Shown here one piece after another: positions 41,800 through 58,544 of a stretch of DNA of 64,000 nt. Every line of letters begins with the position of its first letter. The first letter of the stretch is position 1. The notes beneath the pieces were generated by a model, which had not been told where the DNA came from, did not search any database, and saw only the letters and a program-made list of their open reading frames with translations. The DNA comes from Skermanella rosea (GTDB lineage: Bacteria; Pseudomonadota; Alphaproteobacteria; Azospirillales; Azospirillaceae): assembly GCF_016806835.2 (NCBI RefSeq), contig NZ_CP086111.1:3713471-3777470 (forward strand), read 5' to 3'. The position numbers and the translations under genes were made by a program.

Positions 41800-42159
41800 T
41801 TACCTGGCCTGCTCCCCGGGCTGGTTCGCATCCGGTACCTTGGCGCGATCCTCTATGCTTTCGGCGGATTCCGGCGGTTGCGGCGGCTGGCTGCTGCCGC
41901 GGCTCCGGTTTTCCACGTCGTTCCCCTGGACGTCGACCGGATCCTCCTTCAGGCGCTCGAGGGCGCCCTGAAGCCCGCTCTCCTCGTCCGTCTCGTCGAT
42001 CGTGTCAGGCGAGCGCGTACCCTGGGGAGCGGGGTTGGGTTCGAGGCTCCGCACGACGCCGGGGTCGTTCGTCAGCATCTCCTTGGCTCCCTGGGCGCCG
42101 GCCGGAACGGCGGCCAGGACCAGCAGGGCTGATCCCACGATGATCGGTATCGCATTCAA
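41800..42159 (-). CDS. Small secreted disordered protein
   Basis: From TTG 42159 the product is 119 residues: a signal peptide (NAIPIIVGSALLVLAAVPAGAQG), then an acidic, Pro/Ser/Glu-rich mature chain with SLEPNPAPQGTRSPDTIDETDEESGLQGALERLKEDPVDV and a QPPQPPESAESIED tail. AGGAG lies about 11 bases before TTG. An upstream ATG (42228) in frame would put 23 charged residues before the signal peptide and is less likely. No family recognised. The composition matches the small secreted proteins of the island at 44333-58410. Confidence 0.55.
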   Translation of the reverse strand: MNAIPIIVGSALLVLAAVPAGAQGAKEMLTNDPGVVRSLEPNPAPQGTRSPDTIDETDEESGLQGALERLKEDPVDVQGNDVENRSRGSSQPPQPPESAESIEDRAKVPDANQPGEQAR

Positions 42160-42348
42160 AATGTCGGCACTCCTGTCTTTCGTGTCCCGTCGGGCGAAGC
42201 CCTCCCGGGTCCGGGTCTGGCCGTACAACAGCGGGAACAGCCCTCTTCAGGCGGTCAACAGTGCTGCCGCGGGTTCGTTTCCCGGCAGTCCGCCGACGCC
42301 GTCAGGCGGCCGAAGACGGCGACGGCCGTGAAGGTAGGGATCGCCATG

Positions 42349-43353
42349 TCAGCCCGCATCCTTTCCGTCCGCCTTTCCGTCCGCAGCCGGCTGCCGCGCC
42401 AGGGTGCCCGCGATGGTCCTGGGCGCCGGGGGCTTCGGGCCGGACGGCCAGCCCTCCCGCTGGCGGGTCCGGTCGCCGTCGGTCTCCTCGGTCTGGTCGT
42501 GGAACAGGACCACGCTGGTGGGAAACGGAAGATCGATGCCGCTTTCGCCCATCCTGTCCTTGATCGCCATGATCACGTCGTGCTGGACCCGCAGCACCTC
42601 GTGCTGGCGCGCGTCGGTCCACCACATGGCACGGATGTTGACGCTGGAATCGGCCAGCGCCACGGCGATGGCCTCCGGCGGCGGGTCCCGCAGGACGCCC
42701 TTGACGGTCCGCAGGGTCTCGACGATCGCGGCGGCGGCCTGGCGCGAATCGTCCCCGTACCCGATCCCGATATCGCACTGGCTGCGCCGGATGCCGTAGG
42801 CGGTGTTGACGATGACGGCGTTGGTGAAGATCTCGCCGTTCGGGACATAGGCGCGCCTGCCGTCATAGGTCTTGATGATGGTGGTGCGGGTCTCGATCTC
42901 CTCGACCGTACCCTCGAAATCCTTGAACACGATCTGGTCTCCCAGGCGGAACGGCTGGCGCAGCAGGATCAGGATGCCGGCCAGGAAGTTCTGGAGGATG
43001 TCCTTGAACGCGAAGCCGATGGCCACGCTGCTGATGCCCAGCAGCGAGAACAGGTCGACCGGCCGGACCGAGGGAAACATTATGGTCACCGCGACCAGCA
43101 ATCCGAGCAGCGTCAGTCCCCACTGGGCCAGCCGGCCGAGCACCAGGCCGACATTGCGTCCGGCTCCCCCGGCGGTTCCCCGCCGCGCGGCCATGCGCAC
43201 GCCCTTGCCGATCAGCCAGAACAGGATGAAGACGACGACGCCGATGGCGAGCTTGGGCAGGAAGGAGATCGACCAGTCGATCATCTGGTCGATGGTCGCC
43301 CAGGCCGTCGAGATTTCCGCGTCCACGGCGGCTTGCAGATCGGTATCCTGCAC
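42349..43353 (-). CDS. Small-conductance mechanosensitive channel (MscS family)
   Basis: This 334-residue protein has three N-terminal helices; the pore helix TM3 is in the GLLVAVTIMF...LLGISSVAIGFAFKDILQNFLAGILIL region. The MscS beta domain starts RQPFRLGDQIVFKDFEGTVEEIETRTTIIKTYDGRRAYVPNGEIFTNAVIVNTA, a textbook match. The C-terminal 40 residues are Pro/Lys-rich and poorly conserved. It opens under membrane tension after osmotic downshock. The neighbouring DUF421 gene is 39 bp upstream in the same direction. Confidence 0.93.
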   Translation of the reverse strand: MQDTDLQAAVDAEISTAWATIDQMIDWSISFLPKLAIGVVVFILFWLIGKGVRMAARRGTAGGAGRNVGLVLGRLAQWGLTLLGLLVAVTIMFPSVRPVDLFSLLGISSVAIGFAFKDILQNFLAGILILLRQPFRLGDQIVFKDFEGTVEEIETRTTIIKTYDGRRAYVPNGEIFTNAVIVNTAYGIRRSQCDIGIGYGDDSRQAAAAIVETLRTVKGVLRDPPPEAIAVALADSSVNIRAMWWTDARQHEVLRVQHDVIMAIKDRMGESGIDLPFPTSVVLFHDQTEETDGDRTRQREGWPSGPKPPAPRTIAGTLARQPAADGKADGKDAG

Positions 43354-43392
43354 GGTTGTCCCTGCGGTGTAGTTCAGGAGTGATCGATGCCG

Positions 43393-43932
43393 TCACGCGG
43401 CATCGGACGAACGCGCCGCCGGGCCCGGCTTGGGGACGTTGGCCAGGGCGGAGGTCGAGCCGTCGGAAGACGGGCCGACGACGCTGAAGCTTCCATCGGT
43501 TTCCAGGACGACCGCCTCGACCTGCTCCAGGCTCGCGAACCCGCTGGAGCGCACGGCCGCCATCACCTCCTCGGGCGCCACCCGCGCATCGAGCAGGGCC
43601 TTGTCGAGCATGTTTCCCTTGTGCAGAAGCATCGTCGGCTCGGCCTTGACGAGGTCCCGGACCCCCTGCCAGCGGGCCGACGCCCAGGCGACGATCATCT
43701 GGAGGAAGATCAGGAGAGCGAAGCCGAGAATACCTTCCGCCAGGGCCACGCTCTGGGACAGCAGGATCGTCGCCAGCGTCGAGCCCAGGGCCACCGTCAC
43801 GATCAGGTCGAACGCGTTCATCTTGGACAAGGTGCGTTTTCCGGTGACGCGCAACAGGATTATGATCGCGATATAGGCCAGCACGCCGACCAGGAGGGTC
43901 CGCAGCAGGCCTGTCCAATCGTCAAAAAACAT
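43393..43932 (-). CDS. DUF421 (YetF-like) membrane protein
   Basis: This 179-residue protein has three predicted helices at the start (LLRTLLVGVLAYIAIIILLRVTGKRTLSKMNAFDLIVTVALGSTLATILLS, then GILGFALLIFLQMIVAWA). A soluble DUF421 domain follows with AEPTMLLHKGNMLDKALLDARVAPEEVMAAVRSSGFASLEQVEAVVLETDGSFSVV. The RTGKRTLSxMxxFDLIVTxALGS motif is diagnostic. Members are linked to sporulation or stress in Bacillus but the biochemical role is not known. It lies upstream of the MscS gene, likely in one transcript. Confidence 0.88.
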   Translation of the reverse strand: MFFDDWTGLLRTLLVGVLAYIAIIILLRVTGKRTLSKMNAFDLIVTVALGSTLATILLSQSVALAEGILGFALLIFLQMIVAWASARWQGVRDLVKAEPTMLLHKGNMLDKALLDARVAPEEVMAAVRSSGFASLEQVEAVVLETDGSFSVVGPSSDGSTSALANVPKPGPAARSSDAA

Positions 43933-44132
43933 GAGCTTTCCTTAAGCGTTTCGAATTCCGGCTTCAGTATCGGTCGGATATGACCGACGCGGCGACGCTC
44001 CCAGTGCAACAACGTCGGCCGAAAAAGCTCTCACGCCGCTGGTTTTCCCGCTGAATCCGGCATCAAGGGCAAGACTGGGTGCATCTGCAAAGATGTGTTG
44101 GCGGAGCGAATTGTAGCCTGACAGGAAAAACC

Positions 44133-44175
44133 TTGCGGGAGTCAGGAATTTCCTGACATCACACTTTCCCGCAAA
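44133..44175. promoter_or_regulatory. Nested inverted repeat upstream of the PRC/PxVxV island
   Basis: The 400-bp AT-richer space between DUF421 (leftward) and the first island gene (rightward) has a perfect palindrome GTCAGGAATTTCCTGAC (44141-44157). It is framed by TTGCGGGA (44133-44140) and TCCCGCAA (44168-44175). This could be an operator or fold as an RNA hairpin in the leader of either transcript. The rest of 43933-44332 holds the promoters but no gene. Confidence 0.45.
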
Positions 44176-44332
44176 GTCTGTTGCCGTAGTCAAAGCAATA
44201 GAATCCAGCTTTCGCACCGGCAGTAATGCTGATGCTTACAAAAAGACACTAAACGCGATCTTTGACCCGGTGAGGCAATCATCAGGCCGATCTCGCGATG
44301 TGGAATTATTGCCTTTTCTGCAGGAGAGCCAC

Positions 44333-45877
44333 ATGAGATCTCAAATACTGGCCACTGCCGCTACGCTGCTCGTCATGACGAGCCCTGCGGCCTGGGCCCA
44401 GCAGAACCAAGGACAGGCCGGTCAGGGGCAGCAGGCCCGGGACCAGGCCCCCCAGCAGCGGCTGCGCCAGGCCCAGGGCGAGTTGCGGCAGGCCTACCAG
44501 GATCTCGAACGCGCCCGGAACCAGGGCGGCGAGCAAGGCATCCAGCAGGCCCGCGACCGTGTCCAGCAGGCGCTGGAGACCATGAGTGGAGCGCTGGTCG
44601 CGGTGGCGGAACTGCCGCGGGTGCAGCAGAACACCCAGGCCAGCCAGGCCTTCCAGGAAGCCAGGAACCAGGTCGACGCCTCCCTCGCCGCGATCCGCCG
44701 GCGCGGCGAGGCCGGGGAGCAGGAGAGCCGCACCGCCGCCGCGCGCGCCGATGAACAGGTCCGACGCGGCGCCGAGCAGGCCCGGATGCAGGTCCTGGTC
44801 CAGGCGGCCCAGCCGCGTGTCGCCGTCCAGCAGCCCGCACCCCAGGTCGAGGTGCAGCAGAGGCCGTCGCAGGTGGGCATCGAGCAGCAGGCGCCGCAGG
44901 TCATCGTGCGCCAGGAGCCGCCGACTGTCACGCTGGAGCAGCCTGCGCCGCGGATCACGGTCCGCCAGCAGCCGCCCGAGATCATCGTGCGCCTGTTCGA
45001 ACCCGAGGTGATCGTCAACCAGCGCCGCCCCGAGGTTTCGATCGACATGGGCGATCCCAACGTGAACGTGGACCAGCCCAAGCCGCAGGTCTCCGTCCAG
45101 GTGCCCCGCCCCGACATCAATGTCGACCAGCCCCGGCCGCAGGTCGCCGTGCGGATGCCGGAGCCCGAGATCCAGGTGCAGCAGGCCCAGCCCCAGGTCC
45201 GGGTGGAGCGGTTCGCACCGCAGGTCGACGTGAGCCAGGCGGCCCCGGAGGTCGACGTGCGGGTGCCGGAGCCGCGGGTGGCGGTCAACCAGCCGCGTCC
45301 CCAGGTCAACGTCGACCAGGCGCGGCCGGACGTCAACGTCCAGGTGCCCCGTCCGCAGGTCCAGGTGGACCGGGCCGAGCCGGAAGTGACCCTGCGGATG
45401 CCCGATCCCCAGGTGCAGGTCCAGCAGCCGCGACCCGACGTGGACGTCAACATGGCCCAGCCCGAGGTCCAGGTCGAGCAGGCCCAGCCGCAGGTCCGCG
45501 TCCAGCAGGCCGAGCCGCGGGTGAGAGTGGAGCGGCAGGGGACGGCCGATGTCCAGATGGCCGAACGCGAGGCTCTGGACGAAGGCTCGGCACGGCTGCA
45601 GGCCTTCATCGGCCGCGACGTCGTCGCGCGCTCCGGCGATCACGTCGGGCGGGTGTCCGACCTGCTCGTGGCGCCCGGCGGGGAACTCGACGCCGTGATC
45701 ATCACCCTGGTGGACGAGATGGGCGGACAGCAGGTCCGGATCCCCGCCGACAACGTGATGGTCAACAGCCAGGACGGCACCGTGCTCGTCGTGATGGACA
45801 CGCCCCAGATCACGGCGGCTCCGGTCTTCGACACCGAGGCAGCCGAGGGAAACCTCGTCAGCCGCGGCACACGCTGA
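44333..45877 (+). CDS. Secreted PRC-barrel protein with about 27 PxVxV nine-residue repeats
   Basis: This 514-residue secreted protein has a signal peptide (residues 1-22, ending AWAQQ), a Gln/Arg-rich helical region (25-155, probably coiled coil) and a long repeat region (161-403) of period nine, P-x-V-x-V-x-x-x-x. A PRC-barrel-like C-terminal domain follows (FIGRDVVARSGDHVGRVSDLLVAPGGELDAVIITLVDEMGGQQVRIPADNV). PRC barrels bind partners; the repeats should make an extended beta-type rod. CAGGAGAG precedes ATG 44333. A shorter paralogue lies at 46200-47369. Function unknown; an envelope scaffold or adhesive rod is a fair guess. Confidence 0.8.
   Translation: MRSQILATAATLLVMTSPAAWAQQNQGQAGQGQQARDQAPQQRLRQAQGELRQAYQDLERARNQGGEQGIQQARDRVQQALETMSGALVAVAELPRVQQNTQASQAFQEARNQVDASLAAIRRRGEAGEQESRTAAARADEQVRRGAEQARMQVLVQAAQPRVAVQQPAPQVEVQQRPSQVGIEQQAPQVIVRQEPPTVTLEQPAPRITVRQQPPEIIVRLFEPEVIVNQRRPEVSIDMGDPNVNVDQPKPQVSVQVPRPDINVDQPRPQVAVRMPEPEIQVQQAQPQVRVERFAPQVDVSQAAPEVDVRVPEPRVAVNQPRPQVNVDQARPDVNVQVPRPQVQVDRAEPEVTLRMPDPQVQVQQPRPDVDVNMAQPEVQVEQAQPQVRVQQAEPRVRVERQGTADVQMAEREALDEGSARLQAFIGRDVVARSGDHVGRVSDLLVAPGGELDAVIITLVDEMGGQQVRIPADNVMVNSQDGTVLVVMDTPQITAAPVFDTEAAEGNLVSRGTR
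44813..45541 (+). repeat. 27-bp-period coding repeat (PxVxV nonapeptides)
   Basis: About 27 tandem units of nine codons follow the pattern Pro-x-Val/Ile-x-Val/Leu and four variable residues often ending in Q, P or R (PQVSVQVPR, PDINVDQPR, PQVAVRMPE, PEVQVEQAQ). A few units are shortened. The units differ at the DNA level, so selection acts on the protein pattern and the array is not a recent expansion. Confidence 0.85.
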
Positions 45878-45901
45878 CGCAACGGGAGATCGGAGCACAC
45901 C

Positions 45902-46138
45902 ATGACCAAGCAATTTACCAGCGATCTGCTGCGCCGCCTCTCACGTCCGGCATTGGCCGCCGTCCTGGCGCTGCCCCTGCTCGCCGCCTGCGGCGAGGAC
46001 GAGGTCGCGGAGCAGGAAACAACCTCACCGCCGGCATCGACGTCAGACAACCAGGAAGCGCCGGCCGGCGTGCCGAGCACGCTCGAAAGCACGGAGCGCG
46101 CCATCGAGGCGGTGCCTCCCAAGTCCGACGGCCAGTAA
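45902..46138 (+). CDS. Small lipoprotein
   Basis: This 78-residue protein has an N-terminal hydrophobic segment ending LLAACGED (lipobox, Cys ~35). A short acidic Ser/Thr/Pro-rich mature part follows (EQETTSPPASTSDNQEAPAGVPSTLESTERAIEAVPPKSDGQ). Gly follows the Cys, so outer-membrane sorting is expected. It lies 24 bp after the first PRC/PxVxV gene in the same direction. No family recognised. Confidence 0.7.
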   Translation: MTKQFTSDLLRRLSRPALAAVLALPLLAACGEDEVAEQETTSPPASTSDNQEAPAGVPSTLESTERAIEAVPPKSDGQ

Positions 46139-46199
46139 GGCTTCCGCTCGAAGGCCAAGCCTTACCCGAACAGGCATATCACAAGGAAGGAATCAATCC

Positions 46200-47369
46200 A
46201 TGCGAAGCAAGCTCCTGCTGACGACGGCTCTGACCATCGGCATCGCCGTCCCGGCGGCGATGGCCCAACAGAACCAGCAGCCCCAGCCCAACCCGCAGAA
46301 CCAGCAGCAGGCCGGCCAGGCCCAGCAGCAGAACCCGCAGATGCGGCAGGCCCTGCAGCAGCTCCGCGATGCCGAGAAGCAGATGCAGCAGGCCATGAAC
46401 CAGCAGGGCCAGCCGGGCCAGCAGGCCATGCAGCAGGCCCGCCAGCAGGCCCGCCAAGCGATACAGCAGATCCGTCAGGCGATGCCCCAAGGGCAGAACC
46501 AGCAACTTACGAAGAACATTCAGTCCGCCGAACAGGCGCTGGGCAAGCAAGGCGCCGAAGGTGCCCGCGAGGCGCGCGAGGCGATCGCGCTGATCCTCAT
46601 CGATGTCGAACGGATGTCCACCGCCTCGACCGGTTCCGACGACCGAACGCAGGTCGCGGTGCAGCAGTCCTCGCCCGAGGTGGTCGTGCAGCAGCCTGCC
46701 CCGCAGGTCCAGGTCGAACAGCACCGGCCCCAGGTCACCGTTCAGCAGCCGCAGCCGACGGTCACGGTGGAGCAGCCGCGGCCGCAGGTGAACGTCCAGC
46801 AGGCGCAGCCCCAGGTGACGGTCGAGCAGGCCAAGCCCCAGGTGAACGTCGAACGCGCGGGCGAGCCCCAGGTCACGGTGCAGCGCGCGGGCGAGCCCGA
46901 GGTCAACGTCAAGCGGACCGGCGAGGCTCAGGTCGATGTCCAGCAGGGCGGCAAGCCGCAGGTGAAGGTCGAGCAGGCCGGCAACCAGCAGCAGAAAGGG
47001 CAGCAGGCGCAGATGGCTGACCCGCCGCCCCGGTCCGACGCGCCGGACGGCATCCGTGCCGAGACCCTGATCGGGAAGCAGCTGGTCGGTACCGGGGGCG
47101 AGGAGTTCGGCGAGATCGAGGATGTCCTGATCAATCCGCAGTCCGGGAAGGCCCAGCGGGTGATCGTCGCGGTCGGCGGGTTCCTCGGCATCGGCGAGAA
47201 GCAGGTCGCCATCGACGCGTCCCGCCTCAAGATGGGCCAGGGGCAGGAGGACGTGCAGATCTCGGGCCTGACCAAGCAGCAGGTCCAGGACATGCCCTCC
47301 TTCGAGATGGACGAAAGCATGACCTCCTTCAACCAGACGCCGGGCAACACACCTCCGGCGGCGCGCTGA
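46200..47369 (+). CDS. Secreted PRC-barrel protein with PxVxV repeats, second copy
   Basis: This 389-residue paralogue of 44333-45877 has the same plan: signal peptide (to AMAQQ), a Gln-rich helical segment (22-140), about 12 PxVxV repeats (149-262) and a PRC-barrel-like domain (GIRAETLIGKQLVGTGGEEFGEIEDVLINPQSGKAQRVIVAVGGFLGIGEKQVAIDASRL). The first seven repeats have period nine, the last five period ten with a GE or GG insertion. The PRC domain is of the IGD/GFLGIGEK type seen in many rhizobial and Azospirillum stress-linked secreted proteins. AAGGAAGG precedes ATG 46200. Confidence 0.8.
   Translation: MRSKLLLTTALTIGIAVPAAMAQQNQQPQPNPQNQQQAGQAQQQNPQMRQALQQLRDAEKQMQQAMNQQGQPGQQAMQQARQQARQAIQQIRQAMPQGQNQQLTKNIQSAEQALGKQGAEGAREAREAIALILIDVERMSTASTGSDDRTQVAVQQSSPEVVVQQPAPQVQVEQHRPQVTVQQPQPTVTVEQPRPQVNVQQAQPQVTVEQAKPQVNVERAGEPQVTVQRAGEPEVNVKRTGEAQVDVQQGGKPQVKVEQAGNQQQKGQQAQMADPPPRSDAPDGIRAETLIGKQLVGTGGEEFGEIEDVLINPQSGKAQRVIVAVGGFLGIGEKQVAIDASRLKMGQGQEDVQISGLTKQQVQDMPSFEMDESMTSFNQTPGNTPPAAR
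46644..46985 (+). repeat. PxVxV coding repeat array, second gene
   Basis: Twelve units: seven of 27 bp (PEVVVQQPA, PQVQVEQHR, PQVTVQQPQ and so on), then five of 30 bp (PQVNVERAGE, PQVTVQRAGE, PEVNVKRTGE, AQVDVQQGGK, PQVKVEQAGN). The shift from nine to ten residues inside one array is unusual. Confidence 0.8.
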
Positions 47370-47514
47370 CCACACCCGACACCGACTTGACGGAACGCAG
47401 AACCGGGCAGTCGGCGCGAGGCTGGGCGGATCACCGGCGATCGCCGGGGTCCGCCCCCGCCCGAACCGGCTCCCGCCTTCAACGGACTACCGAGCAAGGA
47501 CCATTGGAGTAGGA

Positions 47515-48144
47515 ATGATGTTGAAACGCACTTCAGCCTGCATCGCCGCACTGGTCATCGCAACGACAGTGCCGGCCCTGGCCCAGCAGCAGGGCAGCCC
47601 GCCGAAAGGCGATCCCGCGACGCGCACGAACCTGGAGCAGTACATCCAGAAACGATCCGGTCCGGAACAGCGCAAGCTCGAACTGCTTCAGACGACGCTC
47701 CTCAATCAGTTCGGCGGGCTCGGCTTCGCGAGGCTGGTGGATTTCGGCAAGGTCGGAGCCAGCTACGTGGCCGAGGTCGAGACCGTGCGCGGCGACAACG
47801 TGTTCGTCACGATAGACCCCATCACCGGCGAGATCATCGGTATAGAGCCGATCACGGCAGCCGTCGTCATGCCGGCTCCCTCGTCCGCATCGGGCTCGTC
47901 CGGGTCGGCGCAGCAGAAATCCTCGGGCGGCGGTTCCTCCGAGTACAGCGCCATGGGAACCTGCCAGCCCGCCGGCTGGCAGCAGATCACCGACGGGATC
48001 GGCAAGCTGCCTCCGGACAAGGAGCTGGTCGCCCGCCGCAAGATGATGCAGGTCTGGGAAAACTATGCCGATGGCGACAACATCGCCTGCCGCGAGAAGC
48101 TGGAGGACATCCAGCGGTATCTGAAAACCGCGTCGGCCCGGTAG
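47515..48144 (+). CDS. Uncharacterised secreted protein
   Basis: This 209-residue protein has a signal peptide (KRTSACIAALVIATTVPALAQQ). The mature part is a globular stretch, GPEQRKLELLQTTLLNQFGGLGFARLVDFGKVGASYVAEVETVRGDNVFVTIDPITGEIIGIEPI, which resembles a PepSY-like strand pattern (V-E-...-G...V.IDP.TGEI). A Ser/Gly linker and a helical C-terminus with two Cys (CQPAGW; ACREKLEDI) follow. The likely fold is a small periplasmic binding or inhibitor module. GGAGTAGGA precedes two adjacent ATGs (47515/47518). Confidence 0.65.
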   Translation: MMLKRTSACIAALVIATTVPALAQQQGSPPKGDPATRTNLEQYIQKRSGPEQRKLELLQTTLLNQFGGLGFARLVDFGKVGASYVAEVETVRGDNVFVTIDPITGEIIGIEPITAAVVMPAPSSASGSSGSAQQKSSGGGSSEYSAMGTCQPAGWQQITDGIGKLPPDKELVARRKMMQVWENYADGDNIACREKLEDIQRYLKTASAR

Positions 48145-48227
48145 ATGAAACCGCGGCACTTCCGGCCGGACTTCGGCCCCTGCCCGATCCGCACGGCTGT
48201 TCCGCAGACACCGATGGGGAGATTTCG

Positions 48228-49142
48228 ATGATACGCATGTCCTTGACGGTCGGAGCGGTGCTCGCCGGCCTGACGGCAGGGGCCTATGCCCAGGAGGAAA
48301 AGCTCGACGAGCCCCTCGACACCGGGCGGATGGGAGCCGGGCGCGAAGCGGAAGGCCCGGCCGGAAACCTGCTTCGCGACCGGGCCCCGCCCGATGCCGA
48401 CGCTCCGCAGGCGGGCCGCCCGCATCAGCCCGCCATCGCCGGCGGCAGCGGAACCGCCGCGACCAATGCGCTGACCAAGATCGGGGAAGAGGCGGAGCCC
48501 GACGTGGAGCGCCTGCCCGAAACCGGTGCCGAACCGGCCCCGCTCAACACGGCGCCGCCGTCATCGGCCCTGGGAACCCGCGGAGGCGGCGCGCTGCAGG
48601 CGGATGACGTCTATGCGGACCAGCTCAAGGAGATGGAGGTCGCGGTCGGGGACCAGGGAGCGATCGGAACGGTCTCCGGCGTGCTGATCGACGTCGATGC
48701 CGGCCGGATCGCGGCGCTCATGGTCTCCAGCGCCGGGCTCCTGGACTTCACGGACCAGACTTACCGGGTCCCCTGGCAGGATATCCGCTCGATCGACAGG
48801 AACGGCCACCGCATCCGGATCGAGCGTCGGCCCGAGCCGGTCGGGAGCCGGGAAGCCGTCATCCGGGCAGCGGACGGGCACCGGCTGACAAGCCTCGACA
48901 CGCTCACGGACATGTCCGTCACGGTCGGTCACGCCGGGAACTTCGGCGAGGTGGCGAGGCTGGTGGTCGACCAGGCGAGCGGAGCCATCGAGCAGCTTAC
49001 GATCTCCGCCGGCGGCCTCGGCGGTACGGGTCTCGGCGATGCCCGTTACGACGTTCCCTGGAGCGCCGTCGCATCGGTGGACCTGGACGCCCGCTGGGTG
49101 CTGGTGGACCGGACCGCGGAGCAGCTGACGTCGGCCAAATGA
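48228..49142 (+). CDS. Secreted protein with two PRC-barrel-like domains
   Basis: This 304-residue protein has a signal peptide (MIRMSLTVGAVLAGLTAGAYAQ) and a long disordered Ala/Pro/Glu linker to residue ~120. Two PRC-type units follow: VAVGDQGAIGTVSGVLIDVDAGRIAALMVSSAGLL...YRVPWQDIRSID, and VTVGHAGNFGEVARLVVDQASGAIEQLTISAGGLGG...YDVPWSAVASVD. The 'G.iG.V...vid...G.i..l.v......VPW..v' rhythm is the PRC strand order. It is likely co-transcribed with its neighbours. Confidence 0.75.
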   Translation: MIRMSLTVGAVLAGLTAGAYAQEEKLDEPLDTGRMGAGREAEGPAGNLLRDRAPPDADAPQAGRPHQPAIAGGSGTAATNALTKIGEEAEPDVERLPETGAEPAPLNTAPPSSALGTRGGGALQADDVYADQLKEMEVAVGDQGAIGTVSGVLIDVDAGRIAALMVSSAGLLDFTDQTYRVPWQDIRSIDRNGHRIRIERRPEPVGSREAVIRAADGHRLTSLDTLTDMSVTVGHAGNFGEVARLVVDQASGAIEQLTISAGGLGGTGLGDARYDVPWSAVASVDLDARWVLVDRTAEQLTSAK

Positions 49143-49201
49143 CGGCAGCGGCCCGTGGCGGGCCGCGAAACATGGACACGCAATTCGATATCGGAGGAAC
49201 C

Positions 49202-50026
49202 ATGGACAGCAAAAGAATGAAGACCGTCGTGGCGTCGGGTATCGCCGCCTTGACGCTCACCGCCAGCACCGCGCTGGCACAGGGAACCGCCACCCAGGGA
49301 ACCGGGAACAACGCCGGCTCGGCGGTCAGCAGACAGGCACCGGCCCCGATCGCGGGAGAGCAGACCCGCATCGACCTGGGGCAATGGGAATACGAGGAAC
49401 TCTACCGGTCCGGCTGGCGCGCCGAGCAGTTGATCGGCGCCAACGTCATCGGCCAGTCCGGCGAGGAGATCGGCGATGTCGAGAACATCATGATCGGACC
49501 CGAGGGCAAGGTTCTCAGCATCATCGCCGAGATCGGCGGCTTCCTCGATATCGGCGACACCCACGTCAACATTCCCTGGAACGAGGTCCAGTTCACGTCC
49601 GGCAAGGAGTCCGTGAAGGTGCCCCTGACCGAGGAGAACCTCGACCAGTACTCGCTGTTCGGCGATGAGGAACAGCTCGGCCGTGGCGCCGCGTCGCGGA
49701 TCCAACGCATGGACGATCCGGCGACCGGGCCGCGCGTGTGGCGGGCGACCGAACTGACGGGCGATTACGTCAGGCTCCAGGGCGGCGAAGCCTACGGCTA
49801 TGTGGACGACCTCATCTTCAACCGCGACGGTACGCTGAGGGCGGTCTCCGTGACGCGGGATGTCGGTTACGGCAACGCGGGTCCTTATGCCTATCCATAC
49901 TATGGCTATGGATACGGGGCTTTCGACCCTGGCCTGGATTATTACGGGCTTCCCTATGCCGAAGACGAGGTCGCCGACGTCGAGCCCTTCGAATACGAGG
50001 AAATGGACGGAAGCGTCTTCCAGTAA
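49202..50026 (+). CDS. Secreted PRC-barrel protein, tyrosine-rich tail
   Basis: This 274-residue protein has a signal peptide (VASGIAALTLTASTALAQ). PRC unit one is WRAEQLIGANVIGQSGEEIGDVENIMIGPEGKVLSIIAEIGGFLDIGDTHVNIPWNEVQF; unit two is VWRATELTGDYVRLQGGEAYGYVDDLIFNRDGTLRAVSV. A Tyr/Gly/Pro tail follows (GPYAYPYYGYGYGAFDP, then YYGLPYAEDEV). This layout recurs in secreted alphaproteobacterial PRC proteins. ATG 49202 has GGAGGA 5 bases upstream. Confidence 0.82.
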   Translation: MDSKRMKTVVASGIAALTLTASTALAQGTATQGTGNNAGSAVSRQAPAPIAGEQTRIDLGQWEYEELYRSGWRAEQLIGANVIGQSGEEIGDVENIMIGPEGKVLSIIAEIGGFLDIGDTHVNIPWNEVQFTSGKESVKVPLTEENLDQYSLFGDEEQLGRGAASRIQRMDDPATGPRVWRATELTGDYVRLQGGEAYGYVDDLIFNRDGTLRAVSVTRDVGYGNAGPYAYPYYGYGYGAFDPGLDYYGLPYAEDEVADVEPFEYEEMDGSVFQ

Positions 50027-50119
50027 TCGGAACGGAGATCCCGGCAAGCAACGGCGGCCGGACCTGTCGTTCGGCCGCCGTTGCCCTTCATGAAGACATA
50101 CTTCGATTCACGGGAGCGG

Positions 50120-50443
50120 ATGATGGGCAAAGTGTTTCACCGCATCGCTGGCCTTGCGGCCGTACTGACCATGATCGGCGCGGGAACGGTGCAGGCACAG
50201 ATTCTTTCCGACGACGGCGAGGAGCCGTCCGTCGGCCTGACCGAGGATCGCGGCGTGATCCCCGAGCGGGAAGGCAGCGGACTGTCGGATCAGGTCGATA
50301 TCGGAACCGTCGAGGACGAGCAGGTGCTGGCCGGCGAGGACGAAGGCCAGCCGCGTGGCGCCGGCGTGGGCCTGCGGGAGAACGAGAGCGATATCGGTGA
50401 GGTGCCGCGGGGACCGGCACCAGGTCTGGAGCGGGACGACTGA
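50120..50443 (+). CDS. Small secreted acidic protein
   Basis: This 107-residue protein has a signal peptide (GKVFHRIAGLAAVLTMIGAGTVQA). The acidic, Gly-rich mature part reads ILSDDGEEPSVGLTEDRGVIPEREGSGLSDQVDIGTVEDEQVLAGEDEGQPRGAGVGLREN. Two adjacent ATGs (50120/50123) follow GGGAGCGG. Probably disordered; no family recognised. Part of the rightward series of secreted-protein genes. Confidence 0.6.
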   Translation: MMGKVFHRIAGLAAVLTMIGAGTVQAQILSDDGEEPSVGLTEDRGVIPEREGSGLSDQVDIGTVEDEQVLAGEDEGQPRGAGVGLRENESDIGEVPRGPAPGLERDD

Positions 50444-50483
50444 TCCCCGGAACCGGCACGCGCCGAAGAAGGAGAGCAACCCC

Positions 50484-50960
50484 ATGCCAGTAAAAACTGC
50501 CCGGAGTCGGCGGGCATGCATAGCCCTGGTCCTCCTGGTGACTTCGTGGACCGGGATACCGGCCGTCGTAGCGGCCCAAATGGGCCGGCAGCCGGAAGTC
50601 GTCCTCAGGCCGGGCGCCATGGACCGGACGGTGGCCGAGTTCGGTTGCCGCATTCCCATACGTATCACGTCGGACCGCACCGGCGGTCCCACGGACATGG
50701 CCATCGCCGTCGAGGCCCGTGACCGGAACGGCAGAAAATTGGAATCAAGCGGATTTCGGACCGAACAGCTCCCGGCCGTCAGCGGAAGCCTTCGCGAGAT
50801 GGATCTGCAATTCTCCCGGACGGCCTGCGACGACATCGCCATCATCGTCGTGACGTCGGCGACCTGCACCTATGGAGACGCCACGGCGACGTCCTGTATC
50901 GACCGGGTGGTCATCGAGGACGAAAACCGTACCGTGGCCTACGAAGTCGACGCCGACTGA
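50484..50960 (+). CDS. Uncharacterised secreted protein with four cysteines in the mature part
   Basis: This 158-residue protein has a signal peptide (SRRACIALVLLVTSWTGIPAVVA). The mature domain is beta-rich (FGCRIPIRITSDRTGGPTDMAIAVEARDRNGRKL, then IAIIVVTSATCTYGDATATSCIDRVVIEDENRTVAYEV) with Cys in FGC, TAC, ATC and TSC, enough for two disulfides. AAGGAGAG precedes ATG 50484. Last rightward gene before the repeat/intron region. No family recognised. Confidence 0.68.
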   Translation: MPVKTARSRRACIALVLLVTSWTGIPAVVAAQMGRQPEVVLRPGAMDRTVAEFGCRIPIRITSDRTGGPTDMAIAVEARDRNGRKLESSGFRTEQLPAVSGSLREMDLQFSRTACDDIAIIVVTSATCTYGDATATSCIDRVVIEDENRTVAYEVDAD

Positions 50961-51145
50961 AGCATGCCGCCGGAAAACGCCGGTTGCGGCATAACCAACT
51001 GCCGGCACGACAAGCAGGGAAATGGCCGCGCTTGTTCTTCGGCTGTCCGGCACGGTACTTGCTTATCAACTACTGAGAACATTCATAGCGACTGTTTTCT
51101 CCTTCGGTTCGATAGGGGTAGGGAAGGTTTTGCCTCCCCTCCCTC

Positions 51146-51179
51146 CGAACCGTGCGGGCGGTTTTCCCGCACACGGCTC
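51146..51179 (-). ncRNA. Group II intron domain V
   Basis: A 34-nt hairpin begins GAGCCGTGTGCGGG, has a GAAA-type tip and returns as CCGCCCGCACGGTTCG. AGC catalytic-triad bases and the two-nucleotide bulge can be placed. Domain V is the catalytic heart of the ribozyme and its intact state argues for an active intron. Confidence 0.85.
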
Positions 51180-51196
51180 TCCAGTCGTGGCTTTCC

Positions 51197-52543
51197 TCAT
51201 CGGGAGTGTCTCGCTTGCCTGAGGGCTGTCGAGAGGGTGAACAGTCCCCTGGTCGCGAAGTAGGCATTGGTCCATTGCCGATGGTCTGCATAGCTTTTCC
51301 CGAAGCCTGGGCGTCGGGATTGCTTGCGCAGCATCGCCCTCAGGCGTCTGCGGATGAACTTGTCCAGTTGCGTGAAGAGGCGGGCTCGAGCATGTTGGAA
51401 GTAGCCGAACCACCCCCGCAGCACCGGATTGAGATCCGCGATGACGTGATCCAGGCTGACGCCCCGGCTGCGGCCGGTGCGGGCTCGGATCTTGTCCTTG
51501 AACGCCTTCAGGCTCTTGTCCCGCACGTATCGGCGTCTCGCCTCGAAGCGGTAGCCGAGGAAGTCGAAGCCCTGGCCGGGTTGCCGGCAGTCTCCGACGT
51601 GCGTCTTGTCGGGATGGAGCGTCAGGCCGTTGTCGGCCACCCAGGCTTGCACCCGGGCCAGGGCCGCGCGGGCCTGCGCCTCGTCCCGGCACAGGACGAC
51701 GAAGTCGTCCGCGTAGCGGATCATGCGGTAGCCTTCGGCTTCCATCAGCTCGTCCAGCGGGTGCAGGTACAAGTTGCTCAGGATCGGTGAGATCACCGCC
51801 CCTTGCGGAGCTCCCGCGACCGGTGTCCATCGTGCCGTTTCCGTCATGATGTCCTGCTGGGGGAAGCTGTCGATCAACTCCAGGACGCGCCCGTCGCTGA
51901 TCAGGTCGCCGAGCCGGGCCATGAGGTCCCGGCGCGGGATCGTGTCGAAGTACCGTTCCAGGTCGGCGTCCACCACCCAGGCGTATCCGTCCTTGAGCGC
52001 CCGGTCGACCGCGCGCAAGGCATCCTTGCAGCCGCGGCCGGGGCGGAAGCCGTAGCTGCCGTCCCGGAACCGGGCTTCGAGGATGGGCTCGATCGTCAGC
52101 TTGAGAGCCGTCTGGACAATCCGGTCCTTGACCGTGGGGATGCCCAGGGGGCGGGTTTTGCCGTCCCCCTTCGGGATCTCCACGCGCCGGACCGGGCTTG
52201 GCCGGTAGCTGCCGCTGTTCAGGTCCTCGTGCAATTCCCGCAGGTACCGATCCGCCTGGAGCGTGAACCGGGCGATGCTCTGCCCGTCCACGCCCGCCGC
52301 CCCCTTGTTACGCGCGACACGCCGCCACGCGCACTCCAGGGTCGCCGGCCGGATCGCTTTGTCGATCAGGCTGTACCATTTGCCTCCTTTGACGCCGTTG
52401 CCCAGCGCCGACACCATGGGGCCGGTCCAGATCGACGCTTCCACCCAGTTCCAATCCCGAGCCTGGGCTTCCGTCCCTTGTTTAGCCGTTACCGGCACTC
52501 CCGGAACTGTTCCTTGCGTCATCCCCGTCCTTCCCCGTTCCAC
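51197..52543 (-). CDS. ltrA: Group II intron reverse transcriptase/maturase
   Basis: This 448-residue intron-encoded protein has RT blocks in order: VEIPKGDGKTRPLGIPTVKDRIVQ, SYGFRPGRGCKDAL, WVVDADLERYFDTI (first catalytic Asp), GAPQGAVISPILSNLYLHPLD and RYADDFVVL (YADD at 277-280). The maturase (GIIM) domain ends it (GVSLDHVIADLNPVLRGWFGYFQHA...FIRRRLRAMLRKQSRRPG). There is no H-N-H endonuclease. It helps the RNA splice and inserts it by target-primed or lagging-strand reverse transcription. GTG 52543 follows GGAGGCAGGAA; ATG 52522 with AAGGA is an alternative. Confidence 0.93.
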   Translation of the reverse strand: MERGRTGMTQGTVPGVPVTAKQGTEAQARDWNWVEASIWTGPMVSALGNGVKGGKWYSLIDKAIRPATLECAWRRVARNKGAAGVDGQSIARFTLQADRYLRELHEDLNSGSYRPSPVRRVEIPKGDGKTRPLGIPTVKDRIVQTALKLTIEPILEARFRDGSYGFRPGRGCKDALRAVDRALKDGYAWVVDADLERYFDTIPRRDLMARLGDLISDGRVLELIDSFPQQDIMTETARWTPVAGAPQGAVISPILSNLYLHPLDELMEAEGYRMIRYADDFVVLCRDEAQARAALARVQAWVADNGLTLHPDKTHVGDCRQPGQGFDFLGYRFEARRRYVRDKSLKAFKDKIRARTGRSRGVSLDHVIADLNPVLRGWFGYFQHARARLFTQLDKFIRRRLRAMLRKQSRRPGFGKSYADHRQWTNAYFATRGLFTLSTALRQARHSR

Positions 52544-52976
52544 TTCCTGCCTCCCTTCCCTCGGGCCGGTTTTGCTATCCGGCCCTCTCCGGCGCCGGCG
52601 ACCGCCCTCCGGCGGTCCCGCGCCATCGCGGTAATATGAAGGCTCTGACTCCTGCCGCCGTCACCCGCGCCGGCAGGTCTCTCCGCTTACTCCGCCTTGC
52701 CGTCCCGACATTCCGCCCCCAACCACGTGGTGGTCCCGCCGGTCGCTTTCCCAGTCACATCAGCGCCGACGGTCGGTTCCAGGCTTCGCCACGAATGAGC
52801 AGGCTCGCCGAGCCACCCCGCCGAAACGGGTTCGTCATCCTATACGGACTGCCGGTTCGCCTCAGGTTGCTCCCCATCCCGCCTCGCGGCGACGCAGTTA
52901 CCTTCGGCTTCGAAGTCGTGACCTCCTTCGGTGCGGACTTGCACCACACTGACAAAACGTCCTCACGGACGCACTC

Positions 52977-53244
52977 ATACCCGGACTTGATCCGGGTATC
53001 TCCCTGCACGACGGCGCTGATGGAGTCTGCAAACGATGACCGGGTCAAGCCCGGTCATGACGGCAAAAAGGCGAATGCTATGGGGGAAAAGCGTCTCTAG
53101 GTTGGTTTAGCAAACACCGTGCCGGACAGCCGTGGGTCAAGCCCGGTCATGACGACAAAAGGGCGAATGCTCTGCGGGAAAAACGTCTCTAGGTTGGTTT
53201 AGCAACCACCGTGCCGGACAGCCGTGGATCAAGTCCGGCCATGG
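52977..53244. repeat. Hairpin intergenic repeats with a 92-bp tandem duplication
   Basis: This region is flanked by the intron. It holds the 5'-exon hairpin (52977-52999) and a rightward unit GACCGGG-TCAAG-CCCGGTC (53038-53055). Two near-identical 92-bp tandem units follow (53051-53142 and 53143-53234) plus the start of a third (53235-53244). Each unit runs CCGGTCATGACG...GGCGAATGCT...CGTCTCTAGGTTGGTTTAGCAA...ACCGTGCCGGACAGCCGTGG. The same GTGCCGGACAGCCG core is at 23319-23345 and, inverted, at 51041-51055. These are non-coding elements of one dispersed family. Confidence 0.8.
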
Positions 53245-53296
53245 CGAATGAAGGGCTTTGGCTTGTGCGCCCCGCTTCGGATCAGAACGCCATCGC

Positions 53297-53545
53297 TCAA
53301 CGGACGTCGTCGCCCACCATCTCCGACGGTCCGGGCAAGCCTTGGCCGTCGAGTTCCGTGGTATAGGGAGCCCTGTCCACCGGGCCGCTGCTGTACCCCA
53401 GCGGGTCGCGCAGGGTCGGCTCGCGGAACAGGGAGGCGTCGTCGGAAGATACCGGACTGGCCGGAGGCAGGTCCGTCGGAGCACAGGCTGTCACGATCAG
53501 CGCTCCCAGGACACCGAAGACGAATGCAGGCGCTTTGCCGGCCAT
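53297..53545 (-). CDS. Small lipoprotein
   Basis: This 82-residue protein starts MAGKAPAFVFGVLGALIVTACAPTDLPPASPV, with a lipobox at Cys21 and Ala after it. The mature chain is short and disordered (SSDDASLFREPTLRDPLGYSSGPVDRAPYTTELDGQGLPGPSEM). AGGAG lies 7 bases before ATG 53545. It is 85 bp downstream of the EF-hand gene in the same direction. No family recognised. Confidence 0.65.
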   Translation of the reverse strand: MAGKAPAFVFGVLGALIVTACAPTDLPPASPVSSDDASLFREPTLRDPLGYSSGPVDRAPYTTELDGQGLPGPSEMVGDDVR

Positions 53546-53630
53546 GCGCGAACTCCTGTCGTCGGTCGATGGCCGGCCGAAGCTGTTCGCGGCCGGCCAT
53601 CGAGCCTTGTTGCGGTGGTTCCGGGGTGCC

Positions 53631-53987
53631 TCAGAACAGTCCGTCCTCTTCCCAGTCGCCCCACTCGTTCTCGGCAAGCATGCCGTCCTCGTTGTCATCC
53701 AGGATGTTCCAGGAGCCATCGGCGAATTCGTCCTGGTCGATCCCGTCGTCATCGTTCAGGTCCCAGTCGCCGAACGAAAGCTGCTCGTCTCCACCCCAGT
53801 CCTCGGAGCCTGCGGCGAACTCCGTATCGTTGATGATCCCGTTCCCGTCATCGTCCCACTCGCCGAAAATGCCGGCGTCGCCGAGATTGGTATCGAAGGT
53901 TCCGCGGTCGATCAGGCCGTCGTCCTGCGCGAATGCGGTACCGGCGGCGAACAGGGCGGCGACGAACACGGCTGAAAGCTTGCGCAT
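53631..53987 (-). CDS. Secreted protein with three EF-hand calcium loops
   Basis: This 118-residue protein has a signal peptide (MRKLSAVFVAALFAAGTAFAQ), then three canonical 12-residue EF loops at about 45-56 (DDDGNGIINDTE), 76-87 (DLNDDDGIDQDE) and 97-108 (DDNEDGMLAENE). Each has acidic or Asn residues at positions 1, 3, 5 and a Glu at 12. W-rich linkers (DWGG, GDWDL, NEWGDWEEDG) separate them. It should bind Ca2+ in the periplasm or outside the cell. GAGGAGTG precedes ATG 53987. Confidence 0.85.
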   Translation of the reverse strand: MRKLSAVFVAALFAAGTAFAQDDGLIDRGTFDTNLGDAGIFGEWDDDGNGIINDTEFAAGSEDWGGDEQLSFGDWDLNDDDGIDQDEFADGSWNILDDNEDGMLAENEWGDWEEDGLF

Positions 53988-54199
53988 GGCTTCACTCCTC
54001 GGTCGATTGCATGACCTCCCAAGGGAGGTTTCTCGGGCAACCCTCGGGGGCGCTTCTCGTCGCAGAATCAATTCAGGCAAAAGAGGGGCATTTCACCGGG
54101 TCGCATCCGTGGCCAATCGTCTCCAAAGAGCCCTCCGGTCCAAGGGAACTTTCGCGCCTCGATCCGCTTCGATGAAGTAGGAATAGACTGGTTGATGAT

Positions 54200-55246
54200 G
54201 TGATCGTGAAAGACGTCGATCTATCCATCGGAACGACCTCCCCGACCGCCAGGACGCTGCGCTGGATCGCGCTGACGGCGCTGGCGCTGCTGGCGGTGTG
54301 GATCGCCGGCGGCTTCCTGCTGATCGGCTTCGCCGGCATCCTGGTCGCGATCATGCTCAGGGCCCTTGGCGATCAGCTCGCCCGGGCAACGGGCCTGAGC
54401 CGCGGCAAGACCGTCCTCATCGTGACCCTGGCCCTGATCCTCCTGATCGGGCTGACCTGCTGGCTTCTCGCTCCCCGCCTGGCATCCCAGGTCGACGAAC
54501 TCTGGCAGACGATCCCGCAATCCATCGACCAGCTGCGGGCCAGGCTGTCGAACTATTCCTGGAGCGAGACGCTGTTCCGCCAGTTCGATCCGGACCGCCT
54601 CAACCTGGACAGCGGATCGATCCTGGGGAGGCTTTCCGGCGCCGCATCCTCGGTCATGAGCTTCCTGGGGACGCTGGTGGTCGTCTGTTTCATCGGGCTT
54701 TACCTGGCACTCGACACCAGGCTTTACAGGAGCGGCCTGGTCCGGCTGTTTCCGCCAAGCTACCGGCCCCGGGTCGACCGGATCCTGGACGAACTCGGGC
54801 GCCTGCTGAAATGGTGGCTCATAGGCCGGGGGATCTCCATGGTCGCGACCGGCGTCCTGACCGGGCTGGGCCTCTGGCTGCTCGGTATTCCGCTGGCGCT
54901 GACGCTGGCGCTGCTGGCCGCGGCGCTGACCTTCGTGCCCTATGTCGGCGCGATCCTGTCGGCCATCCCCGCCCTGCTTCTGGGGCTTGTGCAGAGCCCG
55001 ACCATGGTGCTCTATGTCTCGCTTCTCTACGTCGTCGTCCAGCTGGTCGAGGGCTACCTGCTGACACCGTTGATCCAGCAGGAAACGGTAGCCCTGCCGC
55101 CCGCACTCACGATCGCTTCCCTGGTCCTTTTCGGCGCCCTGCTCGGCCCGCTCGGGCTGATGCTCGGAACGCCGCTGGCGGCGGCCGGCATCGTCCTGGT
55201 CCGTATGGCCTATGTGGAGGATGTCCTGGAACGGGATGAAACCTGA
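54200..55246 (+). CDS. AI-2E-family (PerM/YdiK-like) membrane permease
   Basis: This 348-residue protein has about seven helices. Family features are GFAGILVAIMLRALGDQLARATGLSRGKTVLIVTLALIL, a soluble loop rich in Gln and Leu, TLVVVCFIGLYLALDTRLYRSGLVRLFPPSYRPRVDRILDELGRLLKWWLIGRGISMVATG, and LALLAAALTFVPYVGAILSAIPALLLGL. Members export small molecules or ions (AI-2 in one case; others Na+/H+). It starts at GTG 54200. It faces the EF-hand gene divergently across 212 bp. Confidence 0.88.
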   Translation: MIVKDVDLSIGTTSPTARTLRWIALTALALLAVWIAGGFLLIGFAGILVAIMLRALGDQLARATGLSRGKTVLIVTLALILLIGLTCWLLAPRLASQVDELWQTIPQSIDQLRARLSNYSWSETLFRQFDPDRLNLDSGSILGRLSGAASSVMSFLGTLVVVCFIGLYLALDTRLYRSGLVRLFPPSYRPRVDRILDELGRLLKWWLIGRGISMVATGVLTGLGLWLLGIPLALTLALLAAALTFVPYVGAILSAIPALLLGLVQSPTMVLYVSLLYVVVQLVEGYLLTPLIQQETVALPPALTIASLVLFGALLGPLGLMLGTPLAAAGIVLVRMAYVEDVLERDET

Positions 55247-55267
55247 ACGCCCCGGCGGACGGCCGGA

Positions 55268-55292
55268 ACCGCGCCGGCACTGCCGGCGCGGT
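55268..55292. terminator. Bidirectional hairpin terminator
   Basis: ACCGCGCCGGC and GCCGGCGCGGT form a perfect 11-bp stem with a three-base loop, placed between the convergent AI-2E permease and DegP genes. There is no T-run, so efficiency is uncertain. Confidence 0.55.
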
Positions 55293-55350
55293 CCAAACAC
55301 TTCCCAACGATCCTACCGTCGTCTCCGGACGGTTTCGGCCCGTACTGGGA

Positions 55351-56859
55351 TCAGCCTGTCTGCCCGTCGATCGGCAGCGGCACGAAAATGGAATTCCCGT
55401 CCCGCTGACGCAGCAGCAGCACATGGTCCTGATCGGCATCGCGCGCCCGCTTGACCGCGTTCGCCACGTCGCCCGGTCCGTCGACGTTCTGACGGCCCGC
55501 CTGGGTGATCAGGTCGCCTGGACGCAGGCCCCGCATCGCCGCCGGGCTGTTGGGCTTGACCTGGACGACCACCGCCCCGCTGGCATCGGAACCCAGATCG
55601 AAGCGCTTGCGCATTTCCGGCGACACCGGGGCCAGCGTCAGTCCGAGAGGGCCTTCCTGCCCGCTGCCGCTCTCGCCCTCCGTCTGCGCCTCGGCCGACC
55701 GGGTCTCCTCCAGCTGCGTGATGGTGGTGTTCAGGGTCCGGCTCTTTCCGTCACGAAGCACGGTGATGCCGACCTGCTTGCCGATATCGGTCTGGGCGAC
55801 CGTCCGGCTGAGCTCGCGGGGGCCTTCCAGCTGCCGGCCGTCGAACTGGGTGATGACGTCCCCCTGCTCGATACCGGCCTTGGCCGCCGGGCTGTCCGGC
55901 GTCACCTGCGCGACCAGGGCGCCACGCTGCTGATCGAGGCCGAGCGCTTCGGCAATCTCCGGCGTGACCGGCTGGATCGCGACGCCGAGCCAGCCGCGCG
56001 TCACCTTGCCGGTCTCCCGCAGCTCCGCGATGATCGGCTGGGCAACCTCCGCCGGGACGGCGAAGCCGATGCCGATGTTGCCGCCCGACTGCGAGAAGAT
56101 CGCGGTGTTCACCCCGATCACTTCGCCCGCCATGTTGAACATGGGGCCGCCGGAATTGCCCCGGTTGATCGCCGCGTCGGTCTGGAGGAAATCGTCGTAC
56201 GGCCCAGCCCCGATGTCGCGCGCGCGGGCCGAGATGATGCCCGCGGTCACGGTGCCGCCAAGCCCGAAGGGATTGCCGATCGCCAGCACCCAGTCGCCGA
56301 TCCGCATCTGGTCCGAGTTTCCCCAGGCCACGGCCGGCAGCGAGCCCGCGCCATCGATCTTCAGGAGCGCCAAGTCGGTCTTGGGATCGGTGCCGACGAT
56401 CTTGGCGGTGAACTCCCGCTCGTCCTGGAGCACGACCTTCACCTCGTCGGCCTTGCTGACCACGTGGTTGTTCGTCACGACGTAGCCGGACGGGTCGATG
56501 ATGAAACCGGATCCCAGCGCCGTGGCCGGGGGCGAGGGTTGCTGCGGCCCATCCCCGTTCCCACCCGGACCGAACCGCCGGAAGAAGTCCTCGAACGGAA
56601 TGCCGGGCGGAAGATCGAACTGCGGGAAGCCCGGCGGCAGGCCGAACCCGGGTCCGCCCCCGCTTTCGTCGTCCCCTGCCTGTTGATTGGAGGTGGCGGT
56701 GATGGTGACGACGCTGGGAAGTTTGCTCTGCGCCAGGTCGGCGAAGCTCGCCGGAGCATCGGCCTGCTGGGCGGATACCGTGCCGGTACCGACCAGGGTC
56801 AGGGACAAGGCGAGAACGCAGTGCCGCGAAGCCCGCATGAGAGATGGAGAGACGAACAT
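55351..56859 (-). CDS. degP: Do-family periplasmic serine protease, two PDZ domains
   Basis: This 502-residue protease/chaperone has a signal peptide (CVLALSLTLVGTGTVSAQ) and a Gly/Pro-rich LA-type insert (residues 60-110). The protease domain has His132 (TNNHVV), Asp162 (KTDLALL) and Ser236 (GNSGGPM). PDZ1 begins RGWLGVAIQPVTPEIAEALGL and PDZ2 GPLGLTLAPVSPEMRKRFDL. It degrades or refolds damaged envelope proteins. ATG 56859 has GAGGAAC about 8 bases upstream. Its position among secreted PRC proteins suggests envelope-stress control. Confidence 0.93.
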   Translation of the reverse strand: MFVSPSLMRASRHCVLALSLTLVGTGTVSAQQADAPASFADLAQSKLPSVVTITATSNQQAGDDESGGGPGFGLPPGFPQFDLPPGIPFEDFFRRFGPGGNGDGPQQPSPPATALGSGFIIDPSGYVVTNNHVVSKADEVKVVLQDEREFTAKIVGTDPKTDLALLKIDGAGSLPAVAWGNSDQMRIGDWVLAIGNPFGLGGTVTAGIISARARDIGAGPYDDFLQTDAAINRGNSGGPMFNMAGEVIGVNTAIFSQSGGNIGIGFAVPAEVAQPIIAELRETGKVTRGWLGVAIQPVTPEIAEALGLDQQRGALVAQVTPDSPAAKAGIEQGDVITQFDGRQLEGPRELSRTVAQTDIGKQVGITVLRDGKSRTLNTTITQLEETRSAEAQTEGESGSGQEGPLGLTLAPVSPEMRKRFDLGSDASGAVVVQVKPNSPAAMRGLRPGDLITQAGRQNVDGPGDVANAVKRARDADQDHVLLLRQRDGNSIFVPLPIDGQTG

Positions 56860-57079
56860 CGGATGTTCCTCGATCGGTGTTTCCGGGTGAGTTTCGATAA
56901 TGCTCCGAACACCAGCGCCTCGGGTCGAGCGGCGACCCCGAGCGACAGCAGGTTCGATGCGGGAGGCCGGGTACCGGCTCCTCCCGTGGTACCCGGCTAA
57001 CTCCGCGGGCACCGCCCGGTTCCAGCCTTTTTCAGCCCCGATTTACCCTTGTCGCATCCGTCCGAGCGGCGGCGGATAC

Positions 57080-58410: not shown

Positions 58411-58544
58411 GCCGCATCGGCCGGCTCCCGCCCGTCCATCCCGCGGAAGGTCGAACTCGCTTAAGAATCGGGGAACCGTCCAGGCACATGGCCGGTTCTC
58501 CAAAGAGTTGCTCAGGAAAATAGAAAAAATCCGAGGAGGAAACG

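Follow-up and report, generated by a model that had tools for sequence, protein, structure and literature searches.

Architecture of gene A

We analysed a 64,000-nucleotide stretch of the Skermanella rosea contig NZ_CP086111.1 (positions 3,713,471 to 3,777,470), here called the window, in which a gene that we term gene A encodes an exported protein with an unusually regular array of nine-residue units. The features of the gene, in window coordinates, are the following:

44333..45877, + strand: gene A, 514 residues (signal peptide, helix bundle, nonapeptide array, PRC barrel)
44333..44398, + strand: signal peptide, read by eye and ending in AWA
44426..44785, + strand: helix bundle, residues 32-151, predicted by AlphaFold2
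44813..45541, + strand: nonapeptide array, 27 units of the form PxVxVxxxx
44948..45055, + strand: keystone, four units position-locked across homologues
45596..45790, + strand: PRC barrel, by PF05239 profile and by fold match

Translated in frame, positions 44813 to 45541 give 27 consecutive nonapeptides without a break in register. Position 1 is proline in 26 of the 27 units, with a serine in unit 3, while position 3 is valine or isoleucine and position 5 valine, isoleucine or leucine in every unit. The array holds 26 strict units, whereas 10,000 shuffles of the residues gave 1.2 on average and never more than 4. Ahead of the regular units, at 44786-44812, a degenerate one brings the count to 28. 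The units are rich in glutamine and proline, and glycine occurs three times in 243 residues. At the DNA level, the 27 units are diverse, with a mean pairwise identity of 0.57 and not one identical pair in either DNA or protein. Downstream of the array, the Pfam profile PF05239 identifies a PRC barrel at 27.2 bits against a cut-off of 21.2. A scan of the protein against NCBIfam gave no match over any cut-off, and a PDB sequence search returned no relevant match.

Purifying selection on the nonapeptide pattern

Two orthologues from the same genus, in genomes G001 and G002 (95% and 93% identity, respectively), allowed the ratio of non-synonymous to synonymous substitution rates (dN/dS) to be estimated. 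Over the whole gene it is 0.17 and 0.16. Within the units, positions 1, 3 and 5 have values of 0.06 and 0.05, resting on small counts of 1 and 2 non-synonymous changes, compared with 0.16 and 0.27 at the other positions. Units 1-12 (0.04 and 0.12) are more constrained than units 13-27 (0.20 and 0.25). Because of these low ratios, we conclude that the reading frame of A is coding and that its nonapeptide pattern is held by purifying selection. Much of the original prediction, made from the letters of the window alone, is borne out by these data: the "some 27" very regular PxVxV units are exactly 27, their DNA varies while selection maintains the pattern, the signal peptide supports secretion, and a PRC barrel follows the array.

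Predicted structure

We modeled full-length A by AlphaFold2 with nine sequences. The region ahead of the array, first described as coiled coil, is predicted instead to be a helix bundle, with predicted local distance difference test (pLDDT) scores mostly of 92-98 over residues 32-151; its fold matches in the PDB are designed and generic helical bundles and four-helix bundles, and are uninformative. The PRC barrel is modeled at a pLDDT of about 72-90. A Foldseek search with it gives 3htr as the top match (E 8.3e-5, prob 1.00), and reaction centre (RC) H subunits, RimM and the archaeal proteins PRC1 and PRC2 are matched as well. Also among these matches is 8onw, by its title a solved PRC heterodimer.

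Most of the array falls below a pLDDT of 50 in the full-length model, with strands of period 9 around the keystone at about 50-59. The isolated array core, modeled with six sequences, forms twelve five-residue strands with an exact period of nine, at a mean pLDDT of 77.9 that rises to 84-92 over residues 31-110. Its global topology is not confident (predicted template modelling score 0.31, two of five models poor), and the strands could pair as a ribbon, a meander or a solenoid, all of which are possible from the model. The PDB fold matches of the core are weak. Many are long pore-stem hairpins at high root-mean-square deviation. We did not regard the matches as relatives, and no solenoid is found among those listed.

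Of the extended beta or polyproline-like rod originally proposed for the array, the extended beta character is what the core model supports. The accompanying idea that this rod holds the PRC domain away from the membrane is not directly supported, as no membrane anchor is seen in A apart from the signal peptide, though the neighbouring lipoprotein described below could supply one. A spacer running perpendicular to the membrane is also unlikely, since a fully extended strand of the 252-residue array would measure about 80 nm (252 x about 0.33 nm) and the periplasm is narrower than this; we rejected it unless the chain is folded or paired.

Homologues of the array and a position-locked keystone

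With full-length A as the query, matches were obtained in 12 of 59 relatives, a figure that includes matches to the PRC part alone. A profile of the core, with the own genome counted, finds 12 of 82 family genomes, in 6 of 13 genera, and 8 of 398 genomes of the phylum. A generic six-unit profile detects 7 of 385 genomes of the class, two of which (G739 and G561) look unrelated on inspection. Similar genes occur in six plasmid records, four from Paracoccus and one each from Pelagibacterium and Indioceanicola, and all six are annotated just as "PRC-barrel domain-containing protein"; the regions were fetched for four of these records. Judging from these sequences, the module of array plus PRC barrel is patchy but wide, reaching other Alphaproteobacteria and other classes.

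A PRC barrel was detected by Pfam in 24 of 28 array proteins scanned, A and B (the neighbouring gene introduced below) not counted. The remaining four are L034 and L017, whose barrel region looks degenerate by eye, and L015 and L035, which have none; L015 is a third paralogue of S. stibiiresistens, and L035 joins an EF-hand region to the array and is encoded next to an array-plus-PRC gene. The N-terminal parts vary among array proteins, being helical and glutamine-rich, EF-hand-containing (L046 and L035) or little beyond a signal peptide. EF-hand motifs joined to the same nonapeptide array lie at 1288-1815 in L035 and at 880-2085 in L046. Two sequences were left out of the array-plus-PRC count, namely L057, a low-complexity frame of 137 residues, and L058. 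The latter, from G561, holds a different, very acidic nine-residue array of the PEVVVEDEE type in an unrelated 666-residue frame that starts at position 460 of L058, and it looks convergent. L045 ends at a contig end, L016 and the same-genus copies stand outside the Pfam scan, and no frame of L039 or L047 passed the motif filter.

The period is kept with great strictness. Among 330 spacings of up to 20 residues between strict motifs in 26 proteins, 301 are 9, 17 are 18 and 6 are 10. One outcome named beforehand as counting against the original prediction was a confident prediction of pure disorder with the pattern lost in orthologues; in the homologues the pattern is kept. In a full-length alignment, ten homologues align gap-free over more than 100 array columns.

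A further alignment, of 14 units, was cut in register by hand. In seven proteins the units were numbered from the PRITV unit as position 0. At positions 0-4, comprising the keystone and the next unit, 26 of 35 units are matched best, among foreign units, by the one at the same position. Elsewhere this is true of 6 of 41 units upstream, 3 of 32 at positions 5-9 and 4 of 54 further on, and beyond position 9, 17 of 54 units are closer to another unit of the same array than to any foreign one. Across keystone positions 0-3, same-position scores are 31.5-38.1, compared with 12.5-18.4 for other positions. The keystone units are conserved and arginine-rich in the homologues, with the window's own keystone lacking part of the Arg/Gln pattern; placement of the keystone is uncertain in the more distant proteins. 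By a lenient criterion, the arrays of A orthologues from other genera have between 15 and 42 units. Because the keystone is locked in position while the number of units varies, the array reads, at the sequence level, as a fixed functional segment with expanding flanks.

Gene B, a lipoprotein and the gene neighbourhood

Gene A is followed by a small lipoprotein gene and by a second gene of the same design, which we term gene B; these and the neighbouring genes are the following:

45902..46138, + strand: small acidic lipoprotein, 78 residues, lipobox LAAC read by eye
46200..47369, + strand: gene B, 389 residues, design as in A
46647..46982, + strand: array of B, with eight units of nine residues and, from 46836 on, units of ten
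47046..47225, + strand: PRC barrel of B, by Pfam
42349..43353, − strand: MscS-type mechanosensitive channel, neighbour, by profile match
43393..43932, − strand: YetF/DUF421 membrane protein, neighbour adjoining A, by profile match
48228..49142, + strand: exported protein with two PRC matches, neighbour
49139..50026, + strand: exported protein with two PRC matches, neighbour
54200-55246: AI-2E family transporter
55351-57012, − strand: HtrA-like protease with PDZ domains
57080-57970, − strand: further PRC-barrel gene

Like A, the B protein runs from a signal peptide through a glutamine-rich segment and an array to a PRC barrel, which PF05239 matches at 39.5 bits against the cut-off of 21.2. Its ten-residue units (46836-46982) have GEP at most junctions. 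Ten-residue units with GEP junctions are also seen at the PRC-proximal end of the array in L037, L038, L040 and L052.

A and B are neighbours in all seven loci examined (the window, G001, G006, G012, G016, G029 and G033), in which genes were called by a simple codon-position script. These loci represent five genus labels, one of them shared by G029 and G033, whose records nevertheless bear the names Aerophototrophica and Oleisolibacter. A small lipoprotein gene is present at five of the seven. In Skermanella it separates A from B, whereas in G006, G012 and G029 it follows B; the A-B loci of G016 and G033 showed none, and a search of the plasmids for the lipoprotein gave no match. B homologues from five other lineages all carry a PRC barrel by Pfam, but each of their arrays has just 3 to 10 strict motifs. 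The A-B locus of G029 is followed by a YetF gene, and in the window one adjoins A.

Together, A, B and the genes at 48228-49142, 49139-50026 and 57080-57970 form a cluster of PRC-barrel genes across 44333-57970. A group II intron lies within this region at 51112-52543, consisting of the Rfam match RF00029 at 51112-51181 and a reverse transcriptase/maturase frame at 51197-52543 on the − strand; over 42000-58500, Rfam detects nothing else.

Candidate operator upstream of gene A

The region ahead of gene A contains one further conserved feature:

44119..44158, + strand: 40-bp block, candidate operator, the same in all three Skermanella genomes with gene A

Inside it, at 44141-44157, is the perfect palindrome GTCAGGAATTTCCTGAC. 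By exact matching, each of the three genomes with A has a single copy of this palindrome, and the 29 others searched have none. We regard the block with its palindrome as a candidate dedicated operator. Upstream of A, no promoter of the EcfG type, whose consensus we take to be GGAAC-N16/17-CGTT, was found either exactly or with one mismatch, though this consensus may not be that of the genus. A scan for sigma-70-type promoters likewise found none. Sites similar to that consensus appear in the excerpts of PMC6599016 and PMC6180224 that we consulted. As far as these excerpts go, PRC-barrel genes of Sphingomonas melonis and Sinorhizobium meliloti belong to the general-stress regulon, as do MscS genes of Sphingomonas (PMC6599016, PMC6180224).

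A proposed periplasmic scaffold and its alternatives

The reading that we favour, still tentatively and at somewhat less than even likelihood, is that A serves as a beta-rod scaffold in the periplasm, assembling together with B and held in place by the lipoprotein, and that its gene belongs to an envelope-stress cluster. It builds on the anatomy of the sequence, the selection acting on it and the gene neighbourhood, together with predicted strands, helix bundle and barrel fold; the pairing with B, the lipoprotein tether and the stress role we infer. A would be exported via Sec and act as a scaffold in the periplasm. Each unit would contribute one five-residue strand, whose valines at positions 3 and 5 point to the same side, followed by a turn of four residues that leads to the next proline; the result would be a rod or ribbon with the helix bundle at one end and the PRC barrel at the other. 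The four central units may be a constant site for docking or nucleation, flanked by units that act as a spacer of variable length. A would work with B, probably by the pairing of beta edges of equal period, of both PRC barrels, or of both, and the acidic lipoprotein would tether this assembly to the envelope. The position of A among genes for MscS, YetF, HtrA and several PRC-barrel proteins suggests that it helps the cell to withstand envelope or osmotic stress. In a bolder version, which we think unlikely, the products of the A-B-lipoprotein operon form a periplasmic filament or zipper of a kind not yet described, with arrays paired in register, seeded by the keystone, tuned in length by gain and loss of units and tethered by the lipoprotein, the operon being under the control of a dedicated palindromic operator. 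The array might then be a general bacterial rod module, as it also occurs joined to EF-hands.

The low pLDDT of most of the array in the full-length model, its variable unit number outside the genus and its wealth of glutamine and proline would all suit a flexible, mostly disordered or polyproline-like linker between bundle and barrel, in which the pattern is a by-product of unit duplication. Such a linker would not, however, be expected to keep its period at exactly 9 in 301 of 330 spacings, to be under strongest selection at positions 1, 3 and 5, to yield core strands at pLDDT 84-92 or to contain a position-locked segment, and recent duplication would leave identical units, of which there are none. 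On account of the period, the selection and the core strands, we dropped pure disorder as the leading view and retain it as an improbable rival. About as doubtful is the suggestion that the keystone binds an envelope component (peptidoglycan, lipopolysaccharide or a membrane protein such as YetF or MscS), which would make A a sensor or clamp and not a scaffold. Its conserved, arginine-rich and position-locked units, and the YetF gene adjoining the operon in both the window and G029, are in keeping with binding, whereas the departure of the window's own keystone from the Arg/Gln pattern and the confinement of YetF adjacency to two lineages speak against it. Slightly less probable is a two-stranded beta-solenoid with 18 residues per coil, one face of which would bind a ligand or ion, much as in RTX rolls. 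One strand per nine-residue unit, with both valines available to fill a narrow core, fits this arrangement, but the listed PDB matches of the core, all weak, include no solenoid, and with glycine so scarce the array lacks a Gly/Asp calcium signature.

Membership in the DUF6470 family (PF20074), whose function A would then share, is very improbable. The original prediction held that the array matches no repeat family, which is not strictly so, as this Pfam model exceeds its cut-off in A (33.2 bits, cut-off 28.9). It also matches all ten core members at E up to 1, and it exceeds that threshold in 9 of 28 further array proteins and in 3 of 289 genomes of the class, the threshold being the model's cut-off. 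On the other hand, the best stretch in A covers just positions 2-46 of the 178-position model, and in B nothing was matched at E up to 1. In the controls, shuffling residues within each unit position raised the score of the array from 50.4 bits to 57.6-68.4 bits in all four cases, the match is lost in both of the full shuffles tested (four were made), and the reversed array, at 21.4 bits, stays under the cut-off. We therefore rejected membership, because column-shuffled arrays outscore the real one. Since column shuffles score higher and full shuffles lose the match, what the model recognises in A is a generic nine-residue pattern.

Exported PRC-barrel proteins are annotated in many genomes, and in the portions of the literature consulted we found none with such an array treated. 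The genes described here add a conserved module of array plus barrel, accompanied by a partner gene, a lipoprotein and a conserved segment of defined extent, which makes its function directly testable. Should the array prove to be a regular beta rod that changes length through its number of units, it would offer a simple natural system for the evolution of strict-period repeats, with a fixed keystone and expanding flanks.

Comparison with known systems

The PRC barrels of A and B are related to the PF05239 family by sequence, and that of A also by fold. Within the consulted portions of the literature on PRC barrels in combination with the periplasm, signal peptides or repeats, we found no study of a PRC protein with a nonapeptide beta array, and the literature searched returned nothing for "nonapeptide repeat" together with "PRC-barrel". 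The beta-roll of RTX proteins is built on the nonapeptide GGxGxDxUx, and thus resembles A in having a nine-residue period in an exported protein. It differs in sequence, as none of the 27 A units fits this motif and the Gly/Asp calcium signature is missing. The central repeats of AHNAK also form a long array with regular prolines and alternating hydrophobic residues, and in this they recall A. This likeness is one of description rather than of sequence comparison, and the AHNAK units differ in being about 128 residues long and human, according to the consulted part of PMC10682155, whose reference list includes a title calling AHNAK a "polyionic rod".

DUF6470 is a family of unknown function and not a characterised repeat family; a literature search by that name found nothing. 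Bacillus subtilis has a match to the model over the cut-off, in the gene that we take to be yviE. Its context is unlike that of A, as yviE adjoins flgL in the accessible part of PMC4054197. What the two have in common is the period itself: the first 50 or so positions of the model recognise a nine-residue pattern as in A, with the rest of the model not needed, and a similar nine-residue pattern does exist within the DUF6470 family.
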